NCBI GenBank assembly: GCA_016200005.1
Contig: JACQFP010000078.1
Span: forward strand, 1 to 64,000
Direction: 5' to 3'
DNA: 64,000 bases
From: Verrucomicrobiota bacterium
GTDB lineage: Bacteria; Verrucomicrobiota; Verrucomicrobiia; Limisphaerales; PALSA-1396
Shown here: positions 1,585 through 15,007 of the stretch, piece after piece
Position numbering within the stretch: the first letter of the stretch is position 1
How the letters are laid out: each line of letters opens with the position of its first letter
Made by a program: the position numbers and the translations under genes
The notes under the pieces: model-generated
Told to the model about the DNA's origin: nothing
The model's input: only the letters and a program-made list of their open reading frames with translations
Database searches by the model: none

Positions 1585-2532
1585 TCAGTCCAGTCGCTGG
1601 CTAGGTTTCAACTCATGGCCGGCGAGAAATTCCTGCGCGGTCAGCCGGCGTCCACCTTCGAGTTGCAGTTTGAGAATCCGCAAGGCGCCACCACCGCACG
1701 CAACGATGATGCCCGATTTGTCGGCCAGCATAATTTCGCCAGGCCGACCTGGGCGCTCGACAACGTCCGCCTGCCAGATTTTGAGCAGGTGCGGTTTCGG
1801 TTGAGCGGCAAGATAAGTGAACGCTCCGGGCCACGGCGTGAAGGCCCGGATGCGATTCCAGAGTGTTCGCGCGGGCTGGGTCCAATCGAGGCGGCCGTTT
1901 TGTTTCGTTATCTTCGGAGCGTAGCTGACACCTTCGGCTGGCTGCGTTCGCGGTTTAATTTTTCCGGCGACGTAATCAGGAATCGTGCGGACCAGCAAAT
2001 CCGCTCCTAGGTTCGCCAGCCGATCGTGAAGAGTTTCCGCGTCGTCGGTCGCAGCGATGGTTGTCGCCTGTTGGGTGAGAATGTCGCCGGTGTCCAAGCC
2101 GGCGTCCATTCTCATGATGGTGATGCCGGTTTCGGATTCGTCATGCAAAATCGCGGATTGAATCGGCGAGGCGCCGCGATATTTCGGCAGCAACGACGCG
2201 TGGACATTCAGGCAGCCAAAGCGCGGCAATTCCAGAATCGCGGGCGGCAGGATTTGGCCGTAAGCCGCGACGGTGATCAGGTCGGGTTGCAACTGCCGCA
2301 GTTCCTGAACGAACTTCTCGTCGCGGGCGCGGTGGGGTTGCAGAACGGGCACGCCGAGTCGCGCGGCCAGCACTTTTACCGGCGAGGGTTGCAACTTCAG
2401 ATCACGACCCTTGGGACGGTCAGGTTGTGTGACGACCGCGATTGGTTTGAACTCCGGCCGTTGCGCCAGCGCCGCCAGGCTGGCGCAGGCAATTTCCGCG
2501 GTGCCCATGAAGATGATTCGCAGCGGTGACAT
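1585..2532 (-). CDS. fmt: Methionyl-tRNA formyltransferase
   Basis: Transfers a formyl group from 10-formyltetrahydrofolate to initiator Met-tRNA. The 315-residue length equals the usual size. The N-terminal Rossmann-like domain begins MSPLRIIFMGTAEIA, and the folate/catalytic loop is clear: CLNVHASLLPKYRGASPIQ with the conserved Asn and His, followed by TGITIMRMDAGLDTGDIL, including the catalytic Asp region. The C-terminal tRNA-binding domain follows a linker at about residue 205. A peptide deformylase gene, often adjacent, is not seen here. It is followed upstream on the same strand by the zinc-ribbon gene and adk, probably one transcription unit. Confidence 0.97.
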   Translation of the reverse strand: MSPLRIIFMGTAEIACASLAALAQRPEFKPIAVVTQPDRPKGRDLKLQPSPVKVLAARLGVPVLQPHRARDEKFVQELRQLQPDLITVAAYGQILPPAILELPRFGCLNVHASLLPKYRGASPIQSAILHDESETGITIMRMDAGLDTGDILTQQATTIAATDDAETLHDRLANLGADLLVRTIPDYVAGKIKPRTQPAEGVSYAPKITKQNGRLDWTQPARTLWNRIRAFTPWPGAFTYLAAQPKPHLLKIWQADVVERPGRPGEIMLADKSGIIVACGGGALRILKLQLEGGRRLTAQEFLAGHELKPSQRLD

Positions 2533-2589
2533 TGGTCAGGGACCAAAGTAAAAGCGCAACACGCGGAAAGCGCGAATACTTTTTGCCGT

Positions 2590-2826
2590 TCACGGGCGCA
2601 ACAGTCGTCGCGGCCGGGCCGGTCGGGCGGTGGCCGGGAGCGGCGCCACCAGCGCCGCGCCGGTCACCGTGCGTTTGCCGAGCGAGGTCGCGCACGCGGC
2701 ACAAAGATATTCGTGTAACTCGCCATTCGGCAAAACGAGGAGCAACTTTTCCCGGACCGGTTGTGAGCGCCGGCATTTGGGACAATAGAGTTCGCTGGCA
2801 GTAAGTTCACCAAACTGTTGCGGCAT
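2590..2826 (-). CDS. Small zinc-ribbon protein
   Basis: A 78-residue protein. I chose the ATG at 2826 because it leaves an 8-bp gap after adk; a longer reading frame upstream overlaps adk and has non-protein-like composition. Two Cys pairs (CPKC at residues 15-18, CAAC at 42-45) make a likely zinc ribbon, and the C-terminus is rich in Arg, Pro and Ala, as in nucleic-acid-binding tails. I do not recognise a named family. Its position between adk and fmt suggests co-expression with translation/nucleotide housekeeping genes. Confidence 0.65.
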   Translation of the reverse strand: MPQQFGELTASELYCPKCRRSQPVREKLLLVLPNGELHEYLCAACATSLGKRTVTGAALVAPLPATARPARPRRLLRP

Positions 2827-2834
2827 GGGTATTC

Positions 2835-3416
2835 CTAGAGTTTGGCGATGATGCGCAAAATGTCGCTCAACACCTTGACGGGCTTTTGCGTCGAATCGAC
2901 GTTGTGGACGAGTTTCTTCCCGTAGAAATCCAGCACGGGTTTCGTCTGAAGGTCGTAGGTTTTTTGGCGGTTGCGGATGATTTTCAAATTGGCGTCGTCG
3001 AGCCGGTTTTCGCGCAGCGCCCGGTGGTGGAGTCGCTTGATCAGCTTGTTGACATCCGGACAATGCAGATTAATCACCGCGCGCACCTTGACCGTGTCGG
3101 CCAGCATCTTGGCCTGCGCCAGATTGCGGGGAATGCCGTCCAAAACCATCGTGTCCGTGGCGGGGTTGAACTGGCCGGTCTGCGTCATGTTCTCGATGTG
3201 TTGCCGCCAGAGCCGGATGGTCGGCTCATCCGGCACGAGTTCGCCGCGACTGGAATACTCGATGAAGACACGGCCAATTTCACTTTCGACAGACATGTTG
3301 CGAAACACATCGCCGCAGGCGAAATGGAAGAAGTTGGGAATGGTGCCGAGGATTTTGCCCTGCGTTCCCTTCCCAGCGCCGGGTGCCCCGAACAATAGAA
3401 TTGCGCGATACTTCAT
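2835..3416 (-). CDS. adk: Adenylate kinase family nucleotide kinase
   Basis: Phosphoryl transfer between ATP and AMP. The 193-residue protein starts MKYRAILLFGAPGAGKGTQ, with the P-loop GAPGAGKGT, then the NMP-binding region (HFACGDVFRNM) and the DGIPRN motif, a slight variant of the usual DGFPR. The LID is short (RENRLDD) and lacks the four-Cys zinc site, as in short-type adenylate kinases. The substitution of Ile in DGIPRN and the divergent LID leave some doubt about exact nucleotide preference. It is expressed with the zinc-ribbon gene and fmt. Confidence 0.88.
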   Translation of the reverse strand: MKYRAILLFGAPGAGKGTQGKILGTIPNFFHFACGDVFRNMSVESEIGRVFIEYSSRGELVPDEPTIRLWRQHIENMTQTGQFNPATDTMVLDGIPRNLAQAKMLADTVKVRAVINLHCPDVNKLIKRLHHRALRENRLDDANLKIIRNRQKTYDLQTKPVLDFYGKKLVHNVDSTQKPVKVLSDILRIIAKL

Positions 3417-3496
3417 AGATTTGATTGCAATGCGTTTTGCTTCGCCGATTTTTTACTGATCGCGGCACTCGAACTGGCTGGGTGGCGTTTCGCAGT

Positions 3497-4495
3497 TTAA
3501 GCGTCCTTGTGTTTCAATTGGACTTGTTTGATTTCGATAAACGGGATCATGACTTCTTCGGAAGCCTGACCTTTGTCCACTTGAAAATGCATTTCGTTGG
3601 CGGCAATCCGGCTGATGCGCTGGCCGGTGAATTCGCCGCGCGAGGATTTGATCACCACCACCATGTCCTTCTCCGCGCCGCGTGGCACGACGCCAAAGAA
3701 GCCTGAGAATTTCGTTTCAAAAAAGCGCCGGTTGAAAATGAACTGGCCCCGTTCATAGACCACCGTAGGCGGCAGAGACGCCGCTGGTGCGGATGCGGGC
3801 GCGTTTCCATCCTGGGATGGAGCCGGGTGCGTTCCCGATCTTGCGATATGCAACCCGCCGGTGTCAGCCACGGGCGCTCCGCTCGCGGTTTCGGCGTATT
3901 CTTCAGGCGGCGCTTCCGGCAGCAATGCTTCTTCCTCGGCTTGCGTCAATTCTCCGCTTGGTTTCAATTGCATCGGCAGGGAAAGGAAAATGATTGGCCC
4001 GATGACAGGCGCCACGGCGGATACGCCGCACACCAACGCCACGGGTCGGGCACGGTAGTTGGAAATCTCAAACGCCGCGTAAAGGTTGCCCAGATAAAGA
4101 ACAAACAGGATGAACAGGCCGATGCCTGACGAAAACAACGCGCCGATCAACGATCCGGCCACCGGACGTTCCAGCCGCGGCACTTCGTTGATGGTGATCG
4201 CCTTCCTTTGAATCTTCTCGTCCTGCGTCAACTCAATGAACGGTTCGACGAACTGGGCGGCCTTGGCGTTCTTCTTGCTGATTTCTTTCAGGTCGCTCTG
4301 CGAGAATTTGCTCCACGGGATTCGGTCCGAGTATTTGTTGTCGCCGAGCTTGATCACGACGCCGCTCTCGTCTGAGGAAACGAACTCGCCCGTCATCGTT
4401 TGTCCGTCCTTGAGTTGATAGGTCTCGGCCCGGGCGAAGTCACCGAGCAGACCGTATAACGACACGAGGGCCAAAATTGTAAAAAACCTGCGCAC
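3497..4495 (-). CDS. Membrane protein with SHD1-like modules
   Basis: A 332-residue protein of unknown function. I chose the GTG at 4495 because a strong Shine-Dalgarno (TTAGGAGA) lies about eight bases upstream; the reading frame continues to a TTG at 4513 that would place this site inside the gene. An N-terminal signal-like segment (FFTILALVSLYGLLG) is followed by a module (LKDGQTMTGEFVSSDESGV to IPWSKFSQSDLKEI) resembling the SHD1-like domain of PVC bacteria. Two transmembrane helices lie around residues 115-140 and 150-172. A Pro/Ala-rich linker leads to a second similar module at the C-terminus. Confidence 0.6.
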   Translation of the reverse strand: MRRFFTILALVSLYGLLGDFARAETYQLKDGQTMTGEFVSSDESGVVIKLGDNKYSDRIPWSKFSQSDLKEISKKNAKAAQFVEPFIELTQDEKIQRKAITINEVPRLERPVAGSLIGALFSSGIGLFILFVLYLGNLYAAFEISNYRARPVALVCGVSAVAPVIGPIIFLSLPMQLKPSGELTQAEEEALLPEAPPEEYAETASGAPVADTGGLHIARSGTHPAPSQDGNAPASAPAASLPPTVVYERGQFIFNRRFFETKFSGFFGVVPRGAEKDMVVVIKSSRGEFTGQRISRIAANEMHFQVDKGQASEEVMIPFIEIKQVQLKHKDA

Positions 4496-4543: not shown

Positions 4544-5971
4544 CTACGCGCTTCCATGAATGTTGCGGCTCAACTGTTCCACCAAGTCCTCCACCGTCCA
4601 GGCGCTGTGCTCATCGCTGAGACGATCGGCAGAAACGCCGTGCTGCCACACGCCGTAGCGGATGGTTTTCAGGGCGTCACTTTGCAAAGCCGGTTGAGCG
4701 ATCAACCCACCCAAATACCCGGCCAACACGTCGCCGCTGCCGCCTTGCGCCAGATAAGGATTGCCCGATGAATTGATGAAAATCTCCCCGGCACTTCGAC
4801 CGACGAGCGATTGATGTCCTTTCAGTACCACCCAACAATCTCCGAATCGTTTCGAGATTTCGCGCAATGTGTTCGGGCGATTGGATTGGACCTGTTTCGA
4901 ATCAGCCTTCAACAACCTTGCGGCCTCGCCCGGGTGCGGCGTGATGACACGGACGGCGTTTTTGGGCACTGTTGAATTCACCGGCAGCCAGTCCAGCGCG
5001 CTCGCGTCAACCACCATCGGCAGCGGCGAATCTTTCCAAAGCCGGCGCAACGTAATTTTCAATTCGTCCGGCACTTCGGCGGCGGCCAGGCCCGGACCAA
5101 ACAAGATCGCGCTCGCCGTCGCGGGCAATCGAGGTTCAGGTTGCCACGTGGAAACCATGACGGCTTGCAGTTGGGCGGCGACGGGTTGATAAACGGTTTC
5201 CGAAGTTAACAGCGTGATCAAGCCGGGCTGGGCGCGTTGCGCGCCGCGCGCCGCCAGCACCGCCGCACCATGAAAACCGCGGCTGCCCGCGATGATGACT
5301 AAATGACCGCACGTTCCCTTGTGGCCCGCTGCCGGTCGCGGCGGCGGATAACCGGTGAAATCATCGGGCAATGTCCAGTTCAACTCACTCATGTGCGGAC
5401 ACGCAACCAAACCAATATCCGGCGCAACTTCGAGCCGACCGACCACCGACCACGCTTGTTGCACAAGCAACCCACGTTTGGGCGCACCGAGCGTCAGCGT
5501 GATCGAGGCTTGAATCGCCCCGCCAAACACTTCGCCCGTGTCCGCGTCCAGACCGGAAGGAACATCCACCGCGAGAATCGGTGCTCCAGCCGCGTTGACG
5601 AAATCGATGAGTTTGATCCAATGTTCATCCAGCGGCCGATTCAGACCGATCCCGAACAACGCATCAACGATCAGCGCCGGACGGTGTTTCAGTAACGACT
5701 TCAATTCGACCAGCGCCGCTGCTGGATCAGTCACGTTCAACAAAGGAACCTCGCGCCCGGCTAGATGCTCCTGGGCCAGACGCGCGTCGTCGCCGTTGTG
5801 ACCTTTGCCCGCCAGAATAAGAATCGTTTCGCCGGGATGAGTGAGTTGCAGCGCGCGCCGGGCGACGAGTTGGCCGACGCGGCGAATCACCTCCGCCTCG
5901 GTCTGGCCGGTGGCCCAGGTGGCTTGCTCCCACTCGCGCATCTGCGCAACACTCAGGACGGGGACGGACAT
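4544..5971 (-). CDS. nnr: Bifunctional NAD(P)H-hydrate epimerase/dehydratase
   Basis: Repairs damaged hydrated NADH and NADPH. The N-terminal half is the YjeF_N epimerase (GKGHNGDDARLA near residue 55; VDVPSGLDADTGE near 135). The C-terminal half is the ADP-dependent dehydratase (ribokinase fold), with ITPHPGEAARLL and the phosphate-binding LAQGGSGDVLAGYLGGLI. At 475 residues it is slightly shorter than the roughly 500-residue family norm. It is followed by no obvious partner and is probably transcribed alone. Confidence 0.95.
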   Translation of the reverse strand: MSVPVLSVAQMREWEQATWATGQTEAEVIRRVGQLVARRALQLTHPGETILILAGKGHNGDDARLAQEHLAGREVPLLNVTDPAAALVELKSLLKHRPALIVDALFGIGLNRPLDEHWIKLIDFVNAAGAPILAVDVPSGLDADTGEVFGGAIQASITLTLGAPKRGLLVQQAWSVVGRLEVAPDIGLVACPHMSELNWTLPDDFTGYPPPRPAAGHKGTCGHLVIIAGSRGFHGAAVLAARGAQRAQPGLITLLTSETVYQPVAAQLQAVMVSTWQPEPRLPATASAILFGPGLAAAEVPDELKITLRRLWKDSPLPMVVDASALDWLPVNSTVPKNAVRVITPHPGEAARLLKADSKQVQSNRPNTLREISKRFGDCWVVLKGHQSLVGRSAGEIFINSSGNPYLAQGGSGDVLAGYLGGLIAQPALQSDALKTIRYGVWQHGVSADRLSDEHSAWTVEDLVEQLSRNIHGSA

Positions 5972-6179
5972 GCCGCGAAGTTAAGGCGAAGCAAATGAAA
6001 CCTTCAATCCCGAAGTGCCGATTGAGGTTTCCGCCAAAAGACTTTCGGATCACTGAAACAAGAATGGGCGTGGCCACGCTCGCGAGCCGCACGAGGAAAT
6101 ACTGCCTCAGGAGGCGGCGAAGAACAACAGGGTTAAACCGGGGCTTTCCATCGCGCCTGCCTTGTGCTAAAAAGAAACC

Positions 6180-6500
6180 ATGAAAGCGATCAACGAAGGT
6201 TTGCTGCAAACCGCCACCCAAAAACTGGTCGCGGAATTTCAGCCGGAGCAAATCTGGCTCTTTGGTTCGTACGCTTGGGGCGTGCCCACCGAAGACAGCG
6301 ACGTGGATTTGATGGTGATCGTTCCCCGCAGCGACGAACGCAGTATCAAACGAATGCAGCGCGCTCATCGCTGTCTGCGCGGGATTGGTTTCGCAAAGGA
6401 CGTGCTCGTTCCCACGCGCGCCCAGGTGGATCGTTACAAACACCTGCGCGCCTCCCTCTTTCACCAGGTTCTCGCCAAAGGCCGAAAACTTTATGGATGA
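6180..6500 (+). CDS. MNT-family minimal nucleotidyltransferase (antitoxin-like)
   Basis: A 106-residue protein with the minimal nucleotidyltransferase signature GSYAWG at about residues 29-34 followed by the catalytic DSDVDL. Members of this family pair with HEPN proteins and in the characterised MntA/HepT system act as antitoxin by AMPylating the HEPN toxin. The next gene, which overlaps its 3' end by 8 bp, is HEPN-like, so the arrangement fits a toxin-antitoxin pair, though many such pairs remain untested. Confidence 0.85.
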   Translation: MKAINEGLLQTATQKLVAEFQPEQIWLFGSYAWGVPTEDSDVDLMVIVPRSDERSIKRMQRAHRCLRGIGFAKDVLVPTRAQVDRYKHLRASLFHQVLAKGRKLYG

Positions 6501-6906
6501 GGCCACCACGGACCTCGTCCGCGACTGGCTGACGCGCGCGAGCCACGACTTGCAGGCCGCGCGAATCCTGGCAACGGCGGACAATCCACTCCTGGATGCG
6601 GCCATTTACCATTGCCAGCAAGCTGCGGAGAAAGCGGTCAAGGCCTGGCTGCAATCGAAGGACGATCCGTTTCCCAAAACGCACGACATCGAGGAGTTGG
6701 CGGAACAGGCCGCTAAACTGAATCCCGACTTTCAACAACTCGTAAAGCCGGCGGCCGTCTTGACGCCTTACGCCTCCGCGTTTCGCTATCCCGGCGGCGC
6801 GGACGAACCGATGCCCACGCGCGAAGAATTCGACGAAGCCCTGCAACACGCCCAAGCCATTTACGATTTCGTGCTGAATCTGCTTCCGGCGGAAGCGCGA
6901 CCATGA
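6493..6906 (+). CDS. HEPN-domain protein
   Basis: A 137-residue helical protein starting at the ATG that overlaps the MNT gene (ATGGATGA), implying translational coupling. It has the features of the larger HEPN subgroup: WLTRASHDLQAARIL, IYHCQQAAEKAVKAWL, the KTHDIEEL turn and a terminal RYPGG segment. The canonical R-x4-6-H RNase motif of HEPN toxins is not evident, so this may be a non-nuclease HEPN, and the toxin role is inference from the neighbour. Confidence 0.82.
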   Translation: MDEATTDLVRDWLTRASHDLQAARILATADNPLLDAAIYHCQQAAEKAVKAWLQSKDDPFPKTHDIEELAEQAAKLNPDFQQLVKPAAVLTPYASAFRYPGGADEPMPTREEFDEALQHAQAIYDFVLNLLPAEARP

Positions 6907-6952
6907 AACGTCAACGGACAAAATATACGAAAGCCGATCAATGGTTCATGGT

Positions 6953-7558
6953 TTAGTCTCCACGTTTCTCCAGCACACGCTCGATGCGGCGGTCGGGAAC
7001 GAGCCACAGCAGGGCGACGAACACATACAAGCCGCTCGCAATCCACGGACTCACGAACGCGAGCGGGATGGCGATGAGATAGAGCGCCGGAGAGAGCTTA
7101 CCTTTCCAATCGCTGCCGATGGCGGACGCGAGCAGGGAGTCGCGGCCCTGCTGCGCGATGATGGTCCGTTGCAGAATGTAATAAGCAATGGCCGCCATCA
7201 GCAGCACCACGCCATAGACGGACGTGGGCGTGGGCGCGAGGTGGTTCTCGCCCATCCATCCCGTCGTGAAGGGAAAAAGCGACAGCCAGAAGAGCAGGTG
7301 CAGGTTCGCCCACAGGATGCCGCCGCTGACGTGTTTGGTGGAATGGAACATGTGGTGATGGTTGTTCCAATAGATGCCGACGTAGATGAAACTCAAAACG
7401 TAGCTCAATAGCACCGGCAGCAACGGTTTCAGGTTGGCGAGTTCATCCGGGTGCGGCATTTGTTCAGTCGGCTGCGGCACCTTCAATTCCAGCACCATGA
7501 TGGTGATGATGATGGCAATGACACCATCACTGAACGCTTCGAGGCGGTTCTTTTGCAT
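6953..7558 (-). CDS. TMEM175-family (DUF1211) membrane protein, potassium-channel-like
   Basis: A 201-residue polytopic membrane protein with the family hallmark RLEAFSDGVIAIIITIMVLE at the N-terminus; the FSDG motif lies in the pore-lining first helix of bacterial TMEM175 channels. About six hydrophobic helices follow, with the histidine-rich YWNNHHHMFH loop typical of the family. Bacterial relatives are weakly selective potassium channels; physiological role here is unknown. It stands alone between the HEPN gene and the defence cassette. Confidence 0.88.
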   Translation of the reverse strand: MQKNRLEAFSDGVIAIIITIMVLELKVPQPTEQMPHPDELANLKPLLPVLLSYVLSFIYVGIYWNNHHHMFHSTKHVSGGILWANLHLLFWLSLFPFTTGWMGENHLAPTPTSVYGVVLLMAAIAYYILQRTIIAQQGRDSLLASAIGSDWKGKLSPALYLIAIPLAFVSPWIASGLYVFVALLWLVPDRRIERVLEKRGD

Positions 7559-7614
7559 GAGCCACCAATATCAAAACAGGCGGCGACTGTCTCCTGTCTT
7601 TGCGTCCGAAAACG

Positions 7615-7717
7615 CCTCTCAACTCTCAACCAACGACCCTCAACCGCTTCTTAACCGCTGATAAACGCCGATGAACGCTGATTGAAAGGGCTGAAGGCCG
7701 ACAGATGATAACCCAGG
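7615..7717. repeat. Left arm of ~104-bp imperfect inverted repeat flanking the dcm-GHKL-vsr cassette
   Basis: Reverse-complemented, this stretch aligns over its whole length with 12658-12761; by hand roughly 90 of 104 positions match, with one gap. The best conserved block contains aatcagcgttcatc and gaagcggttgaggg. It lies 46 bp past the vsr stop. A small hairpin (acccagggc / gccctgggt, about 7711-7749) sits at its inner edge. Confidence 0.85.
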
Positions 7718-7763
7718 GCAAGCGAGATGAAGTCTGCGCCGCCCTGGGTAAACCATCAACGAT

Positions 7764-8174
7764 TCAAACCAATGCCCTTTGAATGCGCCGCAACAAACGA
7801 ATTTCATTCTTGCGGGCAAGCTCATGCTCCCAGATTCGCAACACACGCCAGTCTCTTTTCCGCAAAGTGCGAGACACGGAAAGGTCACGGGTTTTGTTTC
7901 GAATCATCTTAGCCCGCCAGTAAGTTTGATTGCTTCGTGGTGGCTTGGAATGTTTCAAGCAGCCGTGCCAAAAGCAGCCGTCCACAAAAACTGCCAGCCT
8001 AGCTTCACGGAACACGAAGTCTGGTTTTCCAATGAGAGGCCAGCACCGACGCCAACCGGAGATGCGCGCTTTGCGGAATAGGCGAACGAGTGTCAGTTCC
8101 GTGTCCTTGTTGCCGCTCGAACGAATCCGCGACATCACGTCGGAACGCTTTCGGATGGAAAACACGTCGGCCAT
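7764..8174 (-). CDS. vsr: Vsr-type very short patch repair endonuclease
   Basis: Nicks next to T:G mismatches that arise by deamination of 5-methylcytosine. The 136-residue protein has the usual size and the core KPDFV (Asp52, the counterpart of catalytic Asp51 in E. coli Vsr), FVDGCFWHGC (His70) and a conserved Asp at 97. Asp65 stands where E. coli has His64, a change common in non-enterobacterial Vsr proteins. It is the last gene of a four-gene operon that starts with a cytosine-C5 methyltransferase, 12 bp after the preceding gene. Confidence 0.92.
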   Translation of the reverse strand: MADVFSIRKRSDVMSRIRSSGNKDTELTLVRLFRKARISGWRRCWPLIGKPDFVFREARLAVFVDGCFWHGCLKHSKPPRSNQTYWRAKMIRNKTRDLSVSRTLRKRDWRVLRIWEHELARKNEIRLLRRIQRALV

Positions 8175-8186
8175 TTGCTGTAAAGG

Positions 8187-9461
8187 TCACTTCATCTCAA
8201 CGATTTCACCATCGTCAACCCACTTAACGTATGCGGCGCGGTCGTAGCCCGCCGATTCGAGCAGACTAGCGTGTGCATCTCGCAACTCGGCTTTGAGTTC
8301 GGGATTTGCGGCGAGTTCCTCGTCAATGTCGCAAATTATAGAAACCAATTCGGCAAGCTTGACCGCGCACTCACGCTCGTCGGGATACTTCTTTGCGGGC
8401 AGGCTTAGTTTTGTCATTCCGCTCTCATCCACAGGTGGGGCGATGTTTGGCCTTAGTGCGAACGCGAGTGAAAGCATGATTGCTCCCTTATCTTTGTTTA
8501 TGCAGTGCCGAAAACTCTTGCGCATAACAATTGTCCACTGAGGCTTAGCTCTTTGGCACAGCGCCAACAGCCACTTTCCAAGCGCAACGCTAAACAGTTG
8601 CACCAGGTGATCCTCATTCAGTGCCGACAGGTTAAGTGAAGTCGCGGCACTCCGAAAAGCTTCTTCAGGCAGGAACTTCCTAATTTGGTCGGCAAAGTCT
8701 TTGTGCTTGGTAAAATTGTCACGGGTCGGACCGCACAGGGTTTGCAGGCCTTCCGGGTGAACGACTGCGGGTTCAACCATCGTAGTAATAAAAAGCAGCC
8801 ACTCGGTTTTCTGGTGTTCGAATTGGTAGGAGAGAAGCCGATACAAAGCGTCGTAGTATTCGGTCGGGGCTTTGGCAGTATTTGGAAACATCGAACCACA
8901 TAGGTCGAGATTCACGACGTGATACGGTCCGTATTCCTTCAAGTATCGGAGTGCCTGCGATTCAGGCAAAGCGATAGATTCAAAGCGGTCCTGTAAGACG
9001 CGCGAATTTGTTGCCACACGCAGCAGGGAAGTTACGGCATTGTTAGCGACGTGAACGCGCGTTCCCTTCTGATCCGAGCCTTGGCTTTCGTTGAAACCAA
9101 GATATCGAATGAAACAATTCAACTCGTTCACATCGCGCCAAAGGGCGCGAACATCAAGCAGGTCTTCGCCAGGGATTACGAGACACCGGAGCGGGCGATC
9201 CAAGCCTACGTTTGCGGGCAAATCAAACTTAACCCCGGCGCTGGAGGTTTCATCAAGCGACCATTCACCTTCATCCTGCTGTAGCTGTTGTCGCCAATAG
9301 CGCTTAATCATTCGCGCTGTCAGCTCGTTCCACTGAAAACGCCGGATGTATTCTTTTTTCACCCGATGCCACGGAAGAAACTTGTCCCGCGGCGGCTCTG
9401 TATGTGCAGGCAGCTCGTCCTGTATGATGTCATCAGCAAAGTCAGACCCTTCGGAACTCAT
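8187..9461 (-). CDS. Unrecognised protein of the dcm-GHKL-vsr cassette
   Basis: A 424-residue soluble protein; I cannot assign it to a characterised family. It begins 3 bp after the GHKL ATPase gene and ends 12 bp before vsr, so it is an integral operon member. The central part reads like a degraded Rossmann/methyltransferase fold: RCLVIPGEDLLDVRALW at about residues 89-105 and YGPYHVVNLDLCGSMF at about 182-197, resembling motifs I and IV of class I enzymes. The remainder is mostly helical with conserved-looking Trp/His patches. From memory it resembles proteins annotated in databases only by locus-style family names beside methyltransferases; this is unverified. Confidence 0.8.
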   Translation of the reverse strand: MSSEGSDFADDIIQDELPAHTEPPRDKFLPWHRVKKEYIRRFQWNELTARMIKRYWRQQLQQDEGEWSLDETSSAGVKFDLPANVGLDRPLRCLVIPGEDLLDVRALWRDVNELNCFIRYLGFNESQGSDQKGTRVHVANNAVTSLLRVATNSRVLQDRFESIALPESQALRYLKEYGPYHVVNLDLCGSMFPNTAKAPTEYYDALYRLLSYQFEHQKTEWLLFITTMVEPAVVHPEGLQTLCGPTRDNFTKHKDFADQIRKFLPEEAFRSAATSLNLSALNEDHLVQLFSVALGKWLLALCQRAKPQWTIVMRKSFRHCINKDKGAIMLSLAFALRPNIAPPVDESGMTKLSLPAKKYPDERECAVKLAELVSIICDIDEELAANPELKAELRDAHASLLESAGYDRAAYVKWVDDGEIVEMK

Positions 9462-9464
9462 GCG

Positions 9465-11423
9465 CTAACCTTCCAGTAAAACGATCTCGAGAATGTCGCG
9501 AACAAGTTTTTCCTGCTCATCGAACGACAGCCTTTCAAGCAATCCCCATCCGTGCAGAAGCTGAACAACAGCGACGGCTTTCTTTTCAGCCAGTTTTCGC
9601 CTCTCGCCTTCCGCTGAAGTGGTGTATTTCGCTGGAGACGGCGGAAGCACTACATTTTTCCTGAGAGCGATCATGCCTTCGCTGCGTAGCTTTCGCGCTT
9701 CTGATTGCTTGGCCGGTTCAAGCAAAACAACTTCAGGAACGTCCTCCACCCCACGTGCTTTCAAAGCTGCTTCGACCTTTTCCTCAACTTTTTCCCGGAC
9801 TCTCTTTCCCTGCGTCACAAGTTTGTGTGATCGTACGTCGCTGCCAATTTCTTTGTGGCGGTTGGCAAGTTGTCTCAGCGCAGAGTGCAGCCATTTGACG
9901 AGATATTGGTAGTGTGGATGCGCGTAGTTAAAAGATTCGCGGTCGATGTTTATTGCCCCGTCCAGACCTTCGCGCACAAAAATCTCTGCGGTGATTTGCC
10001 GGGTGCGCGTTTGCTCTGACACTTGGTATCCCATGAATGTCCTATCAAAAAGCGCACCCGAGGCATTGCCGACGCGCAGGATTACCCCTTGATGCTGCTT
10101 CGGAATAATTCGGGGTGACCAAAAAAGATACGCTTCAAACACCAATGGTCCGCCGCTCATTTCCACGTGCTTCTTCTCAAACTTCTGGGAGTCATGACCT
10201 ATGAACAACAATGGGTTTTTTACAGCGGTCTTTGTCTTCGGGAGGTTTCGATAGAGAATCGGGCGAAACAACTGCACGCCGTCAATAAACACGTCGAACC
10301 TTTCTCCCGGAGCACCGTTGGGAGTTTTGAGTCGCAGGGCCTTTCGCGGGGTTTCACCATTTTCAAGTTTGAGTTTTTTAGCCTGTCCACGCGCACGGTT
10401 TTCGATTTCAAAGAACACAAATTCCTCGTCGCCAGCTAAATCAAACGGATGCCCTTCAAGATATTCGAGTGGCGCAGAAACAGAGAGTGTCCAGAGCGTC
10501 TGCAGATATCGATCCAAGAAAATATCCAGGTCAACTGACTCGGTTTCCACGGCGGCATCACGCACAGCGTTTACAAACTTTTCAAAACGCTCTCGCGGCT
10601 GATCGTTTTCGTCCCACGGCAATTGTGGTTGCACTTCGAGCAGTTCCTCCTGCTTCGGCTTCATGCGACCGATGTGCCAAGCCGGCGGCTTTGTCTTTTC
10701 GACTTCGGCCTCCGCCTTCTCATAGTCAATCTTCGTCCAAAGGTCATCACTTGCCAGTTCGGCGCGCGTGCGCGGAAGCAGATCGAGCAATTTGACTTCT
10801 GTCCCGTGAGAATTCCGGTCGGTCGCACGTTCGCGCCAAATGCGTGCGTGTCCCGTTTCGATTTCGCGCCGCCCGCCTTCCTTTAGTGGAAGCAATTTTT
10901 GCTGCCCGCCGACTGAGCCAAGCGTGATGTCCGCAATTGTCCGGTGGGTGTCGCCCTTTGTTTTTGTGATGATGAGAAAATGTCGCGTAAACTGCGCAAC
11001 AGAGAAAAGACCGATGCCGAGCTTCCCAATCAGTTGACGCCCGCCTGGGCTGCGGTTTTCGTCAGTCTTGGCCGTGACACCTAGCTCCTTGCCTTCTTCA
11101 CTCCGTTTCACGCTGCCACCGATATGTTTGATGAGGTGCTCTAACACTTCGGGAGATAGGCCAAGCCCGTTATCACGGATGGAAATTTGCGCGAATCGCG
11201 GTGCATCAGTCAGTATGACTACCTCTGCCGAATCCGCGTCGTATGCGTTAGAGATTAGTTCGCGCAAAGCCGAAGAAGGCTGTCGATAAATGCCGTCTGT
11301 GATGCGAGCCAGCACGCGCTCGTCGGTGGCAAGCATTGTCTCCACCGGCATTCGTGACTTCTCTGACGCGCGAATTTGCTCCGCGAGTGGCTGCTCTACC
11401 GGGGTGGTTTTGGATTTAGCCAT
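9465..11423 (-). CDS. GHKL (MutL/Hsp90/MORC-like) ATPase
   Basis: A 652-residue ATPase. The ATG at 11423 is preferred over an upstream start because it overlaps the methyltransferase stop (ATGGCTAA), indicating translational coupling. GHKL motifs are complete: N-box SALRELISNAYDAD (Glu55, Asn59), G1 IRDNGLGLS (84-90), G2 IGKLGIGLFSV (132-142) and G3 NSHGTEVKL. A transducer-like domain and a long charged C-terminal coiled region follow. Iyer, Abhiman and Aravind (2008) described MutL/MORC-like ATPases in bacterial restriction-modification operons with C5 methylases and Vsr-type nucleases; the gene order here fits that class. Confidence 0.93.
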   Translation of the reverse strand: MAKSKTTPVEQPLAEQIRASEKSRMPVETMLATDERVLARITDGIYRQPSSALRELISNAYDADSAEVVILTDAPRFAQISIRDNGLGLSPEVLEHLIKHIGGSVKRSEEGKELGVTAKTDENRSPGGRQLIGKLGIGLFSVAQFTRHFLIITKTKGDTHRTIADITLGSVGGQQKLLPLKEGGRREIETGHARIWRERATDRNSHGTEVKLLDLLPRTRAELASDDLWTKIDYEKAEAEVEKTKPPAWHIGRMKPKQEELLEVQPQLPWDENDQPRERFEKFVNAVRDAAVETESVDLDIFLDRYLQTLWTLSVSAPLEYLEGHPFDLAGDEEFVFFEIENRARGQAKKLKLENGETPRKALRLKTPNGAPGERFDVFIDGVQLFRPILYRNLPKTKTAVKNPLLFIGHDSQKFEKKHVEMSGGPLVFEAYLFWSPRIIPKQHQGVILRVGNASGALFDRTFMGYQVSEQTRTRQITAEIFVREGLDGAINIDRESFNYAHPHYQYLVKWLHSALRQLANRHKEIGSDVRSHKLVTQGKRVREKVEEKVEAALKARGVEDVPEVVLLEPAKQSEARKLRSEGMIALRKNVVLPPSPAKYTTSAEGERRKLAEKKAVAVVQLLHGWGLLERLSFDEQEKLVRDILEIVLLEG

Positions 11424-12516
11424 GCAGGCAGACAGGAATGTCGGCCAACTCGGCAAGTACGGATAGAACTGCTTTCGCAAGCGGAGGCGGCACAGCGTTG
11501 GTCACTTGTTCCATCTGATTGGCGAAAGAACCATAAACTCGGAAACTGTCCGGGAATCCCTGAAGTCTGGCAGCTTCTCGCACGGTTATGCTGCGCGGTT
11601 CTTTGAAGTGTGCAGGCGGCGCTCGGTGGCCGGAAAAAAGCGTGTTCGAAAGGCGAGTCGGATGCAGGCGGCGGTATGACATCGGGCCAGTGCCTGGGTC
11701 AATGGCCGCAATCTTCTTCATCACTCGCTCAGAGTGCCGCATGGCGAAATGATTGGCAACGCCACCGTAATCTTTGTCATCGTCGTAGTCGTCGGGACGG
11801 ACTTTGGGATCGGACAATCCATTCAGCGTTTCCCTTGCGCCAACGGGATCGGTCTTGAATTCCTCCAGTCGCTCCAAAACGACATGCTCATCGATGGGCT
11901 GCTTGGTCACTAAAAAGAATGCGCGTCTCCGTTTCTGTGACACTCCAAATTCCGATGCGTCGAGAACGATGTGCGTGATGTGAAACTCGCCCTGCTGAAT
12001 TATTTGCTCAAATTTCCGAATTCGATCACTGTGCTTGTCTGCGAGTAACATCGAGACGTTTTCGATCAGTGCACAGTCAGGCTGTAGCTTTGAGACAGCG
12101 CGCGCAACGGCAACCAGCACCTGATTGCGCGGGTCTGCGGGATCGCGAGAACCGGCAGCGGAGAAACCCTGACATGGCGGCCCTGAAAGAATTATCGTTG
12201 GCTGGTTTGCAGCTTTGAATGGTTCTAATAACTTTGCGCATTCCGCGAGAATTGTTTTGGAACGAACGCTTCCTTCCAAAGCTTTGGTGGCAGGGAAGTT
12301 TTTGGAGAACGTCTTGAGAGCGCTTGAATTGACGTCCACGCCGGCGACGATTTGCACACCTAGTTTCTTGGCGGCCAGAGACAGCCCACCCAAACCGCAG
12401 CACAAATCAACCGCACCCGGCGCAGTGGGCGGGGTGCATTGGACGGCGAGGCTTTGTTCCGAACGGTTAGACGGTCGGTTCGTGCCATTGATTGCCTGTT
12501 CGGTCGTTGAAATCAC
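11416..12516 (-). CDS. dcm: DNA (cytosine-5-)-methyltransferase
   Basis: Methylates cytosine at C5 in a sequence-specific context. All core motifs are in order in the 366-residue protein: motif I VDLCCGLGGLS (36-46), motif IV GPPCQGFSAAG with catalytic Cys115, motif VI ENV (152-154), motif VIII QKRRR (194-198), motif IX REAARLQGFPD and motif X QVTNAVPPPLA. The variable target-recognition region between VIII and IX is short, so the target cannot be predicted. It is the first gene of the operon with the GHKL ATPase, the unrecognised protein and vsr. Confidence 0.97.
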   Translation of the reverse strand: MISTTEQAINGTNRPSNRSEQSLAVQCTPPTAPGAVDLCCGLGGLSLAAKKLGVQIVAGVDVNSSALKTFSKNFPATKALEGSVRSKTILAECAKLLEPFKAANQPTIILSGPPCQGFSAAGSRDPADPRNQVLVAVARAVSKLQPDCALIENVSMLLADKHSDRIRKFEQIIQQGEFHITHIVLDASEFGVSQKRRRAFFLVTKQPIDEHVVLERLEEFKTDPVGARETLNGLSDPKVRPDDYDDDKDYGGVANHFAMRHSERVMKKIAAIDPGTGPMSYRRLHPTRLSNTLFSGHRAPPAHFKEPRSITVREAARLQGFPDSFRVYGSFANQMEQVTNAVPPPLAKAVLSVLAELADIPVCLHG

Positions 12517-12838
12517 TTGGTTGCCTTTCAGACTGTTACACGCAAGCCAGTTTCATTGCCATCATTTTCAAATGCGCAAAGTTGGCTAGAATTTCAAGGT
12601 TTTCACGCGAAACATTCAACTCCTCACCCCCAGCCGCTCTTCGTTCAAAGCGTATGGCCTGGGCTATTATCTGTCGGGTTGTCAGCCCTGTGAATCAGCG
12701 TTCATCCGCGTCAATCAGCGGTTCAGAAGCGGTTGAGGGCCGTTGGTTGAGAGTTGAGAGGGGAGCAGAGCACTTCATCGGAGGTCCTCACCCCAGTCCG
12801 GCTCCCATCCGATTGGCAAGGGTAGCGGTCGCCTCGTT
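12517..12838. other. Intergenic region with right repeat arm and repeat remnant
   Basis: The 322-bp gap between dcm and msrP holds no convincing gene. It contains the right arm of the inverted repeat (12658-12761) and, near 12785-12825, a degraded copy of the cctcacc...ggtgagg hairpin family. The dcm promoter should lie at its left end, but I see no clear -35/-10 pair. Confidence 0.6.
12658..12761. repeat. Right arm of ~104-bp imperfect inverted repeat
   Basis: Aligns to the reverse complement of 7615-7717. Together the arms bound a 5.1-kb segment that contains exactly the four cassette genes. Sequence resembles dispersed intergenic repeats rather than transposon ends, since no target duplication is evident. 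Confidence 0.85.
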
Positions 12839-13843
12839 TCACTTCGCATACAGCTTCGCCACGTAGCTGCCGTAACCGTTGTAAGGCTGCGTCCGGACGC
12901 GGTCGCCGCTGTCGATCATGCGTTCCGTCGCCTGTGACCAGCGCGGGTGCGGCACGGCGGGGTTGACATTGGATTCAAACGGATACTCGTCCGGCGCGAG
13001 CGTTTCCCACAAGGTCGCCGGTTGCTGCGTGACGAACTCGATCTTCACAATCGACTTGATGCTCTTGTAGCCGTATTTCCACGGCACGATGATGCGGATG
13101 GGTGCGCCATGCTGCTTGGGCAACGGCTTGCCGTAAATGCCGGTGACCAACATCGTCAGCGGATTCATCGCTTCATCCAGCCGGAGGCCCTCGGTATAAG
13201 GCAGCGGATAACCTTGCTGAATCAGCCTGGCCCAGCCCGGCGCTTGATCGGGACGATTGAAAGTCTGCCATCGAATAAATTTGGCTTCCGGTTTGGGAGA
13301 AACTTTTTCGATGAGTTTGCTGAGCGGAAAACCGGTCCAAGGAACAATCATGCCCCACGCTTCCACACAACGAAAGCGATAGACCCGCTCTTCCATCGGC
13401 ATCGTCACAATCAATTCCTGAACGTCGAGCGTCATCGGTTTTTCAACAAGGCCACTGATTTCGACCGGCCACGGCGCGGTGACGAATTTGTCCACGAGTT
13501 GGCGCACGCGGTCCTTGGTCGTGGAGAATTCGTAGAAGTTGTTGTACGTGCCCGCGATCTTTTCATTCGTCAACGGCCAGCCGGGATTGAACTCCGGGTT
13601 GCGCGGGTAAGGGTATTTGCCGGGGGACACTGGCGAGCCGGACGGTTTCGGCTCCGGTGTCGCGGTGGCGGCAGCAGGTGGATTCGCCGCTTCTTTCGAA
13701 CAACCGAGGAGCGGCAACGACATCAAGCCGGCGCTCGTGACTCCCATCTGCTTGAGGAAGCGGCGGCGATTCAGGAACACGGATTCCGGCGTAACGTGCC
13801 GCTCTGGAATAAACCAATCCGGACGACGAATGATATTGAACAT
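12839..13843 (-). CDS. msrP: MsrP-type protein-methionine-sulfoxide reductase catalytic subunit
   Basis: Periplasmic molybdopterin enzyme that reduces methionine sulfoxide in envelope proteins. A twin-arginine leader (NRRRFLKQMG) is followed by a lipobox-like LLGCSK and a Pro/Ala-rich linker. The Mo-ligand Cys lies in FRCVEAWGMIVPW, and the GAPIRIIVPWKYGYKSIK segment is typical. I prefer the ATG at 13843 over the TTG 18 bp upstream because the family begins close to the (I)PERxVTPESV motif. The haem-membrane partner MsrQ is not seen nearby. Confidence 0.92.
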   Translation of the reverse strand: MFNIIRRPDWFIPERHVTPESVFLNRRRFLKQMGVTSAGLMSLPLLGCSKEAANPPAAATATPEPKPSGSPVSPGKYPYPRNPEFNPGWPLTNEKIAGTYNNFYEFSTTKDRVRQLVDKFVTAPWPVEISGLVEKPMTLDVQELIVTMPMEERVYRFRCVEAWGMIVPWTGFPLSKLIEKVSPKPEAKFIRWQTFNRPDQAPGWARLIQQGYPLPYTEGLRLDEAMNPLTMLVTGIYGKPLPKQHGAPIRIIVPWKYGYKSIKSIVKIEFVTQQPATLWETLAPDEYPFESNVNPAVPHPRWSQATERMIDSGDRVRTQPYNGYGSYVAKLYAK

Positions 13844-13918
13844 GGGATCAAGTTGCTTCAACGTGGTTCATATTTCATCATCACAATCACAAACACAAAT
13901 GGAAAAAATTTTCCGCTT

Positions 13919-15007
13919 ATGCAAATAAAAATCCCGCTTGCTTCGATGACCTGCCTGGCCGTTGGATTCATCTCGATGACATTGACTGCCGCCGAGCCGG
14001 GTGGTTCCTCAGGAGGCGAGTTGCTCAAACAACCAGGACTCGTGACCAAGGAATTCATTTACGAACAAGCGCCCTTCCCGGAATGTCACGCCTCGACCAT
14101 TGCCGAAACGAAAGGCGGACTCGTGGCCGCGTGGTTCGGCGGCACAGGCGAGAAAAATCCGGACGTGGGCATCTGGGTCGCGCGGCACGAGGGCGGCAAA
14201 TGGACGCCGCCGGTCGAAGCCGCCAACGGCGTGCAAAGCCCGACGCAACGCTTCGCGTGTTGGAATCCTGCGCTGTTCCAGCCCAAGAGCGGGCCATTGC
14301 TGTTGTTCTACAAGGTTGGTCCGAATCCGCGCGACTGGTGGGGCATGTTGAAAACATCGAGTGATGACGGCAAAACGTGGTCGGAGGCGCGGCGCTTGCC
14401 GGAAGGTATTCTCGGTCCGATCAAGAACAAGCCAATCCAACTCGCCAACGGTGATCTGCTTTCTCCCAGCAGCACGGAAGACAATGGCTGGCACGTCCAC
14501 TTGGAACGCTCCAGTGACTTGGGCAAGACCTGGCAGAAGAGCGTGCCGGTCAACGGGCCGTTCGGCGTGATCCAACCCACCATTCTCACTCACACGGATG
14601 GACGCCTGCAAATCCTCTGTCGCAGTCAGCAAAGGAAAATTGTCGAGAGCTGGTCCTCCGACGATGGCAAAACCTGGAGCGAACTGGCTGCGACCGCATT
14701 GCCCAATCCGAATTCCGGCATCGACGCGGTGACGTTGTCCGATGGCCGTCATTTGCTGGTCTATAATCACACTTCGAGAGGCCGCTCGCCCGTGAACGTC
14801 GCGGTTTCCAAGGACGGCAAAGACTGGAAGGCGGCATTGGTTCTGGAAGATCAACCGGGCGAATACTCCTACCCTGCTGTGATTCAAACTGCGGATGGAC
14901 TCGTTCATATCACTTACACCTGGAAACGTGTCAAGGTCAGACATGTCATCGTCGATCCCGCCAAACTTTCGCTGCGGGACCTGTCGGACGGTGCCTGGCC
15001 CCGCTGA
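13919..15007 (+). CDS. Exported sialidase-family propeller
   Basis: A 362-residue protein with a signal peptide (PLASMTCLAVGFISMTLTAAE) and a six-bladed sialidase fold, shown by repeated Asp-boxes: SSDDGKTWSE twice, SSDLGKTWQK and SKDGKDWKA. The N-terminal EFIYEQAPFPECHASTIAE region with WFGGT is typical of the BNR-repeat/exo-sialidase group widespread in Verrucomicrobiota and Planctomycetes. A much longer upstream extension of the frame overlaps msrP on the other strand and is rejected. Substrate unknown. Confidence 0.85.
   Translation: MQIKIPLASMTCLAVGFISMTLTAAEPGGSSGGELLKQPGLVTKEFIYEQAPFPECHASTIAETKGGLVAAWFGGTGEKNPDVGIWVARHEGGKWTPPVEAANGVQSPTQRFACWNPALFQPKSGPLLLFYKVGPNPRDWWGMLKTSSDDGKTWSEARRLPEGILGPIKNKPIQLANGDLLSPSSTEDNGWHVHLERSSDLGKTWQKSVPVNGPFGVIQPTILTHTDGRLQILCRSQQRKIVESWSSDDGKTWSELAATALPNPNSGIDAVTLSDGRHLLVYNHTSRGRSPVNVAVSKDGKDWKAALVLEDQPGEYSYPAVIQTADGLVHITYTWKRVKVRHVIVDPAKLSLRDLSDGAWPR

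Follow-up and report, generated by a model that had tools for sequence, protein, structure and literature searches.

A conserved protein with a predicted methyltransferase fold as a candidate recognition subunit of a GHKL ATPase and cytosine methyltransferase cassette

A protein of 424 residues, P0001, encoded on the minus strand at positions 8187-9461 of the 64,000-nucleotide stretch of Verrucomicrobiota DNA analysed here (the window), belongs to a conserved family that is predicted to adopt a methyltransferase fold with an altered pocket and that accompanies a GHKL ATPase and, in most loci, a C5 cytosine methyltransferase. The computation shows the gene, the family, the predicted fold, the conserved pocket, the constant neighbours, the presence in prophages and the co-divergence with the GHKL partner. 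We give an even chance to the proposal that P0001 is the third, obligatory subunit, for recognition or licensing, in a small defence module that resembles restriction-modification systems and also comprises the cytosine methyltransferase and the GHKL protein. In the mechanism proposed, the C5 methyltransferase would mark self DNA, P0001 and the MORC/Hsp90/MutL-like GHKL ATPase would bind one another and form the restricting half, the rewired pocket of P0001 would read the DNA target, its methylation state or a cofactor, and P0001 would license the ATP-driven GHKL clamp to act on unmodified DNA. The three-gene unit as a whole probably blocks foreign DNA. A role of P0001 as a target-recognition or scaffold subunit, as put forward in the initial annotation of the window, is plausible, and the methyltransferase fold says nothing by itself about target recognition. 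The rival readings of P0001, in order of rank, are an active second methyltransferase, a metal-dependent nuclease and a phosphate receiver.

P0001 is a real, conserved gene. The open reading frame is present as annotated, with 424 codons and an ATG start, and its translation scores 283.7 bits (cut-off 200, E 2.7e-84) against the NCBIfam model NF047698 ('PP_RS20740 family', PP_RS20740_fam), a family without assigned function, fold or Pfam entry that also matches 13/13 aligned relatives. The protein had been regarded as unrecognised and as matching no domain; the second statement holds for Pfam (no family at E<=1, nor at E<=10) and for PADLOC, which gave no match to P0001, but it does not extend to NCBIfam, and with NF047698 already in existence the protein can no longer be called unrecognised. 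Additionally, PADLOC and PHROGs scans of 13 relatives returned nothing convincing. The family is under purifying, protein-level selection, with dN/dS values of 0.114 and 0.085 in two pairs of relatives among four pairs tried, the other two of which gave no dS. Including the window, 22 distinct loci were collected, the 21 outside it being a metagenome-assembled genome (L003), two genomes (L012 and L013) and 18 IMG/VR contigs (L018-L021, L023-L025, L029-L035, L039, L043, L048 and L050). The distribution is sporadic, with the family present in 1/288 genomes of its own phylum and in 3/291 genomes of the phylum of L003's genome, two of them above the cut-off. Nothing was found when P0001 was compared by tblastn with plasmids and phages, when the L012, L013 and L018 proteins were compared with plasmids and the L018 protein with phages, when complete E. 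coli genomes were searched with L003 DNA and with L024 DNA, or when viral contigs were searched with P0001 alone, with a two-sequence alignment or with L013 alone as query. A V338F change in the Pseudomonas putida member of the PP_RS20740 family has been described in furfural-tolerant strains (PMC9630843), with no mechanism given in the part of that paper concerned with the change, and a literature search for this member under guessed old locus tags yielded nothing relevant.

In the window, the initial annotation had placed P0001 in an operon with GHKL, methyltransferase and Vsr genes, and these genes do form a tight minus-strand operon, in the order C5-methyltransferase, GHKL, P0001 and Vsr. 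The C5 cytosine DNA methyltransferase, representing the modification half, occupies positions 11416-12516 on the minus strand (PF00145, E 4.7e-52). It is followed on the same strand by the GHKL ATPase at 9465-11480, an open reading frame of 671 codons counted from a TTG; translation more likely begins at the ATG at 11423, which gives an overlap of 8 nt with the methyltransferase stop. P0001 begins 3 nt past the GHKL stop, and the start of the accessory Vsr-type mismatch endonuclease (7764-8174, minus strand; PF03852, E 5.3e-16) lies 12 nt beyond P0001. The G+C content is 0.52 at 8-11 kb and 0.55-0.62 across the 8 kb to the left, a difference compatible with acquisition. Rfam gave no match over positions 5000-15000, and the promoter and terminator scan of the window yielded consensus matches only. 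About 0.9 kb from the operon, at 6180-6906 on the plus strand, a nucleotidyltransferase with a GS...SDVDL motif is followed by a HEPN-like open reading frame, both recognised by eye; this MNT/HEPN toxin-antitoxin-like pair and the operon perhaps form a small defence island. Between the two, at 6953-7558 on the minus strand, lies a small membrane protein that appears by eye to be of the DUF1211/TMEM175 type.

A GHKL gene stands directly upstream of the P0001-like gene in 19/21 loci outside the window, the open reading frames of the remaining two (L035 and L039) beginning at the contig edge, and this linkage is kept across P0001 relatives of 18-53% identity. A C5 methyltransferase was found in 18/21 outside loci, upstream on the same strand in 17 and on the opposite strand in L012, the calls at L043, L048 and L050 being made by motif only. 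In L013 (8927-10588, minus strand) the GHKL/P0001-like pair adjoins an N6/N4-type DNA methyltransferase in place of a C5 enzyme, so that it can function with more than one type of methylase. By contrast with these partners, a Vsr gene was detected in just 1/17 loci (L030, where it is convergent), a count that leaves out L039, L043, L048 and L050 and comes from tblastn with the window Vsr as sole query, by which a very divergent Vsr could be missed. Vsr as a required part was rejected on this count, and it is proposed to be an optional mismatch-repair add-on of the module. Thus, the description of P0001 as inseparable from its operon stands for the GHKL gene and largely for the methyltransferase gene, but not for Vsr. 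In L043 the GHKL gene is split into two open reading frames of 417 and 243 aa (2246-4230), which points to a damaged copy or to an error in sequencing. For 13 loci that carry all three genes, chosen from the 22 by omitting L013, the pair at a contig edge, L043 and closely similar duplicates, the pairwise distances of the P0001 family correlate with those of the GHKL proteins with r 0.943 and with those of the methyltransferases with r 0.801, the value for GHKL versus methyltransferase being 0.699, and none of 9999 permutations reached any of these values. P0001 therefore co-diverges more tightly with GHKL than with the methyltransferase.

The 18 viral-contig loci show the cassette as prophage cargo. 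A PHROGs scan of 10 flank proteins from seven loci served to name the neighbours, which on these contigs include a P2-type replication initiator, portal, terminase, integrases, endolysin, tail proteins, NinB and a helicase loader. In L019 and L020 the cassette lies between P2-type replication and portal genes (assigned by PHROGs for L019), and L021 has the same portal gene to the right with differing left neighbours. The interval between gpA and gpQ of P2 is described as a validated anti-phage defence hotspot in PMC9122126, as far as its relevant part goes, and the L019 and L020 cassettes fall within it. On the measured sides of L033, L034 and L050, 34-101 nt separate the cassette from the nearest phage gene, the left side of L050 being the end of the stretch analysed. 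In L032 the gap is 47 nt on the left, and a phage-like open reading frame lies on the right. With such small gaps to phage genes in the prophage copies, three genes appear to suffice. A fourth gene for a nuclease within the unit was considered and rejected on the measured gaps in L032, L033, L034 and L050. Directly behind the cassette in L018 lies an unassigned 225-aa gene (5741-6418, plus strand).

The fold of P0001 was predicted with AlphaFold2 from 16 sequences. The model has a mean pLDDT of 81 and a pTM of 0.83, with pLDDT under 50 only at residues 1-20, 65-83 and 420-424, and its elements follow the order b1-aA-b2-aB-b3-aC-b4-aD-b5-aE-b6-b7 with a long terminal hairpin. In the methyltransferase-fold core (residues 91-338; 8448-9191, minus strand), delimited by this order of strands and helices, b1 (91-95), aA (102-112), b2 (118-123), aB (130-144) and b3 (154-156) are followed by short helices up to residue 177, by b4 (182-186), aD (201-216) and b5 (221-229), and then by further helices, aE (283-304), b6 (309-322) and b7 (327-338). 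The core is preceded by an N-terminal helix (residues 34-63; 9273-9362, minus strand) delimited by model and alignment, in which K36, R40 and W44 are invariant and which might be a contact to a partner or to DNA, and it is followed in the model by a C-terminal helical extension (residues 362-416; 8214-8378, minus strand). P0001 is thus predicted to have the element order and fold of a class I methyltransferase.

The comparison of this model with known structures points the same way. With Foldseek against the PDB, 4/4 matches at E<=1e-3 were methyltransferases, with low TM-scores of about 0.25 by query; these scores, like the rmsd of the best VIA-align match given next, count against the proposal. 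In VIA-align the best match was Trm1 (3axs; Z 13.6, rmsd 4.5, 236 residues aligned), and among the best 50 matches 45 were methyltransferases or SAM/SAH-binding relatives by title, including M.BseCI (7qw8; Z 11.2, rmsd 3.8, 193 aligned) and YhhF (2fpo; Z 10.8, rmsd 3.3, 167 aligned). The other five were three entries of GRAS proteins, which have a methyltransferase-like fold, together with 3hp7 and 3k6r. A viral structure library gave the same methyltransferase result, plus some other entries. At the level of sequence, hhalign aligned the family significantly neither with an RsmD from the window's genome nor with the adjacent C5 enzyme, a PDB profile search with the family found no methyltransferase and returned three unrelated weak matches, and searches of the PDB by sequence gave one chance match each. 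A sequence-level proof of methyltransferase homology was dropped after the hhalign comparisons. Since these sequence-level comparisons failed, the claim of a methyltransferase fold rests on the predicted structure and on the reading of motifs. The initial annotation had guessed at a class I methyltransferase core and had named structure prediction with fold comparison and a sequence-profile search as checks; the guess is borne out at the level of the predicted fold by the pTM 0.83 model, its class I order and matches that are almost all methyltransferases, with no unrelated well-known fold appearing, and the profile search gave no link to any methyltransferase.

The two sequence patches on which that guess was based are both present and fall at motif positions of the model. 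The first, LVIPGEDLLDVRAL (residues 94-107; 9141-9182, minus strand), occupies the motif I position in the b1-aA loop, with P97, G98, D100, L101, L102 and D103 invariant in 16 sequences, and the second, YHVVNLDLCGS (residues 180-190; 8892-8924, minus strand), occupies the motif IV position at the end of b4, with N184, D186 and C188 invariant in the same set. Across the 16 sequences 30 columns are invariant, among them also the strand-end residues G122 and N124 after b2 and T226 and T227 at the end of b5. When L012 and L013 were added and near-duplicates removed, the resulting 13 sequences kept K36, R40, W44, P97, G98, L102, D103, N184, D186, C188, Q213, W221, T226 and S331 invariant. The invariant residues of the core gather at the C-terminal ends of strands, with 13/19 in 46 of 257 positions (hypergeometric 5e-7, a nominal value, the windows having been set after the conservation was seen). 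Compared with the canonical motifs of methyltransferases, the GxGxG of motif I is absent in 16/16 sequences, Asn124 stands in 16/16 in place of the usual ribose-binding acid after strand 2, and the (D/N/S)PP(Y/F/W) of motif IV is absent in 16/16, with N(L/I)D(L/F)C instead and, in P0001, DLC for DPPY. These replacements do not vary across the 16 sequences, which marks the pocket as altered and not decayed. The core had been called degenerate, which is correct insofar as the canonical catalytic motifs are missing and misleading insofar as the pocket is strictly conserved.

The same observations bear on a reading in which P0001 would itself transfer methyl groups by means of an unusual SAM pocket, modifying another base or a protein and thus setting a second mark beside that of the C5 enzyme. 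The methyltransferase fold of the model and the invariant pocket residues are consistent with it, Trm1, which ranks first among the structural matches, is enzymatically active, and the most divergent member, L013, carries at motif I a sequence of more usual appearance (FPGAGALD), close to FAGTGAL in an RsmD from the window's genome, and an acidic CERD after strand 2. To the eye, these L013 motifs look like an intermediate. However, the absence of both canonical motifs and the Asn at the ribose-binding position across all 16 members speak against methyl transfer, and a C5 methyltransferase is already present in 18/21 outside loci. An active second methyltransferase is accordingly considered unlikely, and the reading of P0001 as a recognition or licensing subunit is preferred to it.

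The model of the GHKL partner (pLDDT 75, pTM 0.70) matches Hsp90, MORC3, MutL and topoisomerase VI-B over residues 51-550, with Z 15.9, rmsd 4.0 and 289 aligned residues for Hsc82 and Z 15.4, rmsd 4.3 and 306 aligned for Morc3. A HATPase_c_3 match was obtained in 14/14 GHKL partners, and the window protein has the layout of paraMORC/MORC-type proteins, with an N-terminal GHKL domain and an S5-type middle domain. At 9927-9953 of the window (GHKL residues 510-518) a conserved NIDRESFN-type stretch is found, which we take to resemble the arginine loop of the Hsp90 middle domain and which may be a gamma-phosphate finger. A search with the C-terminal part of GHKL as query found only its own genome among 245, a result that has no bearing on the occurrence of GHKL without P0001. 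No nuclease family was recognised in P0001 or in GHKL, of which residues 550-671 were hardly covered by the comparison.

This raises the reading of P0001 as a hidden restriction nuclease, in which the Rossmann pocket would have turned into a metal site (D100, D103 and D186) that cuts when the GHKL clamp closes. It would account for a unit in which no nuclease is recognisable, the GHKL matches to Hsp90, MORC and MutL being confined to residues 51-550, and in which the prophage copies leave no room for a fourth gene, and it would agree with D103 and D186 being invariant in 13/13 aligned members and D100 in 12/13. However, the exception at position 100 is L013, which carries Gly there, and a nuclease could instead sit in GHKL, given that the BbrUII/HgiDII model NF050001 matches the ATPase part of 14/14 GHKL partners, although in the window protein it covers only about residues 63-234 and scores 58.8 bits against a cut-off of 550. 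We know of no precedent for a nuclease with a methyltransferase fold, and this reading is held to be very unlikely. A more specific version of the three-gene system would dispense with a conventional nuclease, the GHKL clamp being steered by P0001, which would recognise unmethylated sites, and foreign DNA being disabled either through compaction by the clamp or through a metal site in the methyltransferase fold; we regard it as distinctly unlikely in this form.

Operons of this kind have been interpreted before in another way. PMC8011034, in the part that concerns them, reports on 644 regions, 91.6% of which show linkage of a GHKL gene to an 'RR-like' gene, and on genes for C5 methylase and Vsr in their vicinity. 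On the strength of b1 acids and of a conserved Asp, Thr and Lys, it proposes that they encode a two-component system. Applied to P0001, this published reading would make the protein a response-regulator-like receiver phosphorylated by GHKL. The genomic context (C5 methylase, GHKL, 'RR-like' gene and Vsr) is the same as far as that source describes it. When the known features of receivers and DHp domains were mapped onto the family, D186 (Asp), T226 (Thr) and D100 (b1 acid) could each be assigned in 16/16 sequences, and K296 is Lys in 14/16; going by sequence conservation, the D100/D186/T226 set would fit a response regulator too. However, the second b1 acid (position 99) is acidic in just 10/16, Lys occurs at the b6 position (315) in 4/16, and K296 lies within a helix of the model, which also has extra strands, namely b3 and the b6-b7 hairpin. 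Furthermore, the Pfam model Response_reg_2 (PF19192) matches 0/16 P0001-family members at E<=10 and misses P0001 in its own genome, with one weak match at another place only, and HEF_HK (PF19191) matches 0/14 GHKL partners, its matches in that genome being weak and elsewhere only. PF19192 was not detected in 288 genomes of the same phylum and 291 of the phylum of genome G288, where the control genomes were silent too, so that this is no proof of absence; either PF19192 describes a sister family, or its boundaries are drawn such that the P0001 family is missed. No receiver appears among the best 50 VIA-align matches, an absence that does not amount to exclusion. In a limited search of the literature naming PP_RS20740 or Response_reg_2/HEF_HK, no statement of a methyltransferase fold for the PP_RS20740 family was found. 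The predicted fold argues against a receiver in the P0001 family and remains compatible with a phospho-Asp or metal site, and the receiver reading is judged highly improbable.

GHKL-associated restriction-modification modules are already known, and the P0001 unit, with P0001 as its putative recognition or licensing subunit, is a variant among them. Iyer 2008 (PMC2292703), in the portion dealing with them, places GHKL proteins of the MORC and paraMORC types in operons for restriction and modification, together with methylases and Vsr. These operons and that of the window share a GHKL protein whose middle domain is of the S5 type and which adjoins DNA methylase and Vsr genes; however, that portion mentions no methyltransferase-fold partner, and it assigns a helicase or nuclease to most paraMORC operons, whereas none is recognised here. 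The BbrUII/HgiDII GHKL restriction enzymes (NF050001) are similar in that a C5 methyltransferase adjoins the GHKL protein. VcSduA (GHKL-Shedu, PMC12137116) is comparable in that, according to the relevant part of that report, a GHKL ATPase domain controls a phage-defence effector, but there a DUF4263 nuclease is fused, and none was recognised in the P0001 unit. The 'TCS-like' Response_reg_2/HEF_HK pairs (PF19192/PF19191), as described in part of PMC8011034, share the gene context and the conserved Asp/Thr features and differ in that neither Pfam model detects the P0001 family or its GHKL partners and in that the predicted fold of P0001 is that of a methyltransferase.

With this analysis, a function-less NCBI family without a Pfam entry gains a predicted fold and a partner, and the published 'response regulator' reading of such operons may rest on residues that fit a methyltransferase pocket equally well. 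A clear mechanism is lacking for the GHKL proteins of restriction-modification operons, although their presence there has been on record since 2008, and a self-contained three-gene prophage cassette, small enough for cloning, makes the GHKL question testable. If the module does restrict without a conventional nuclease, this would inform how bacterial relatives of MORC act on DNA, a matter with a bearing on the origin of the eukaryotic MORC ATPases.
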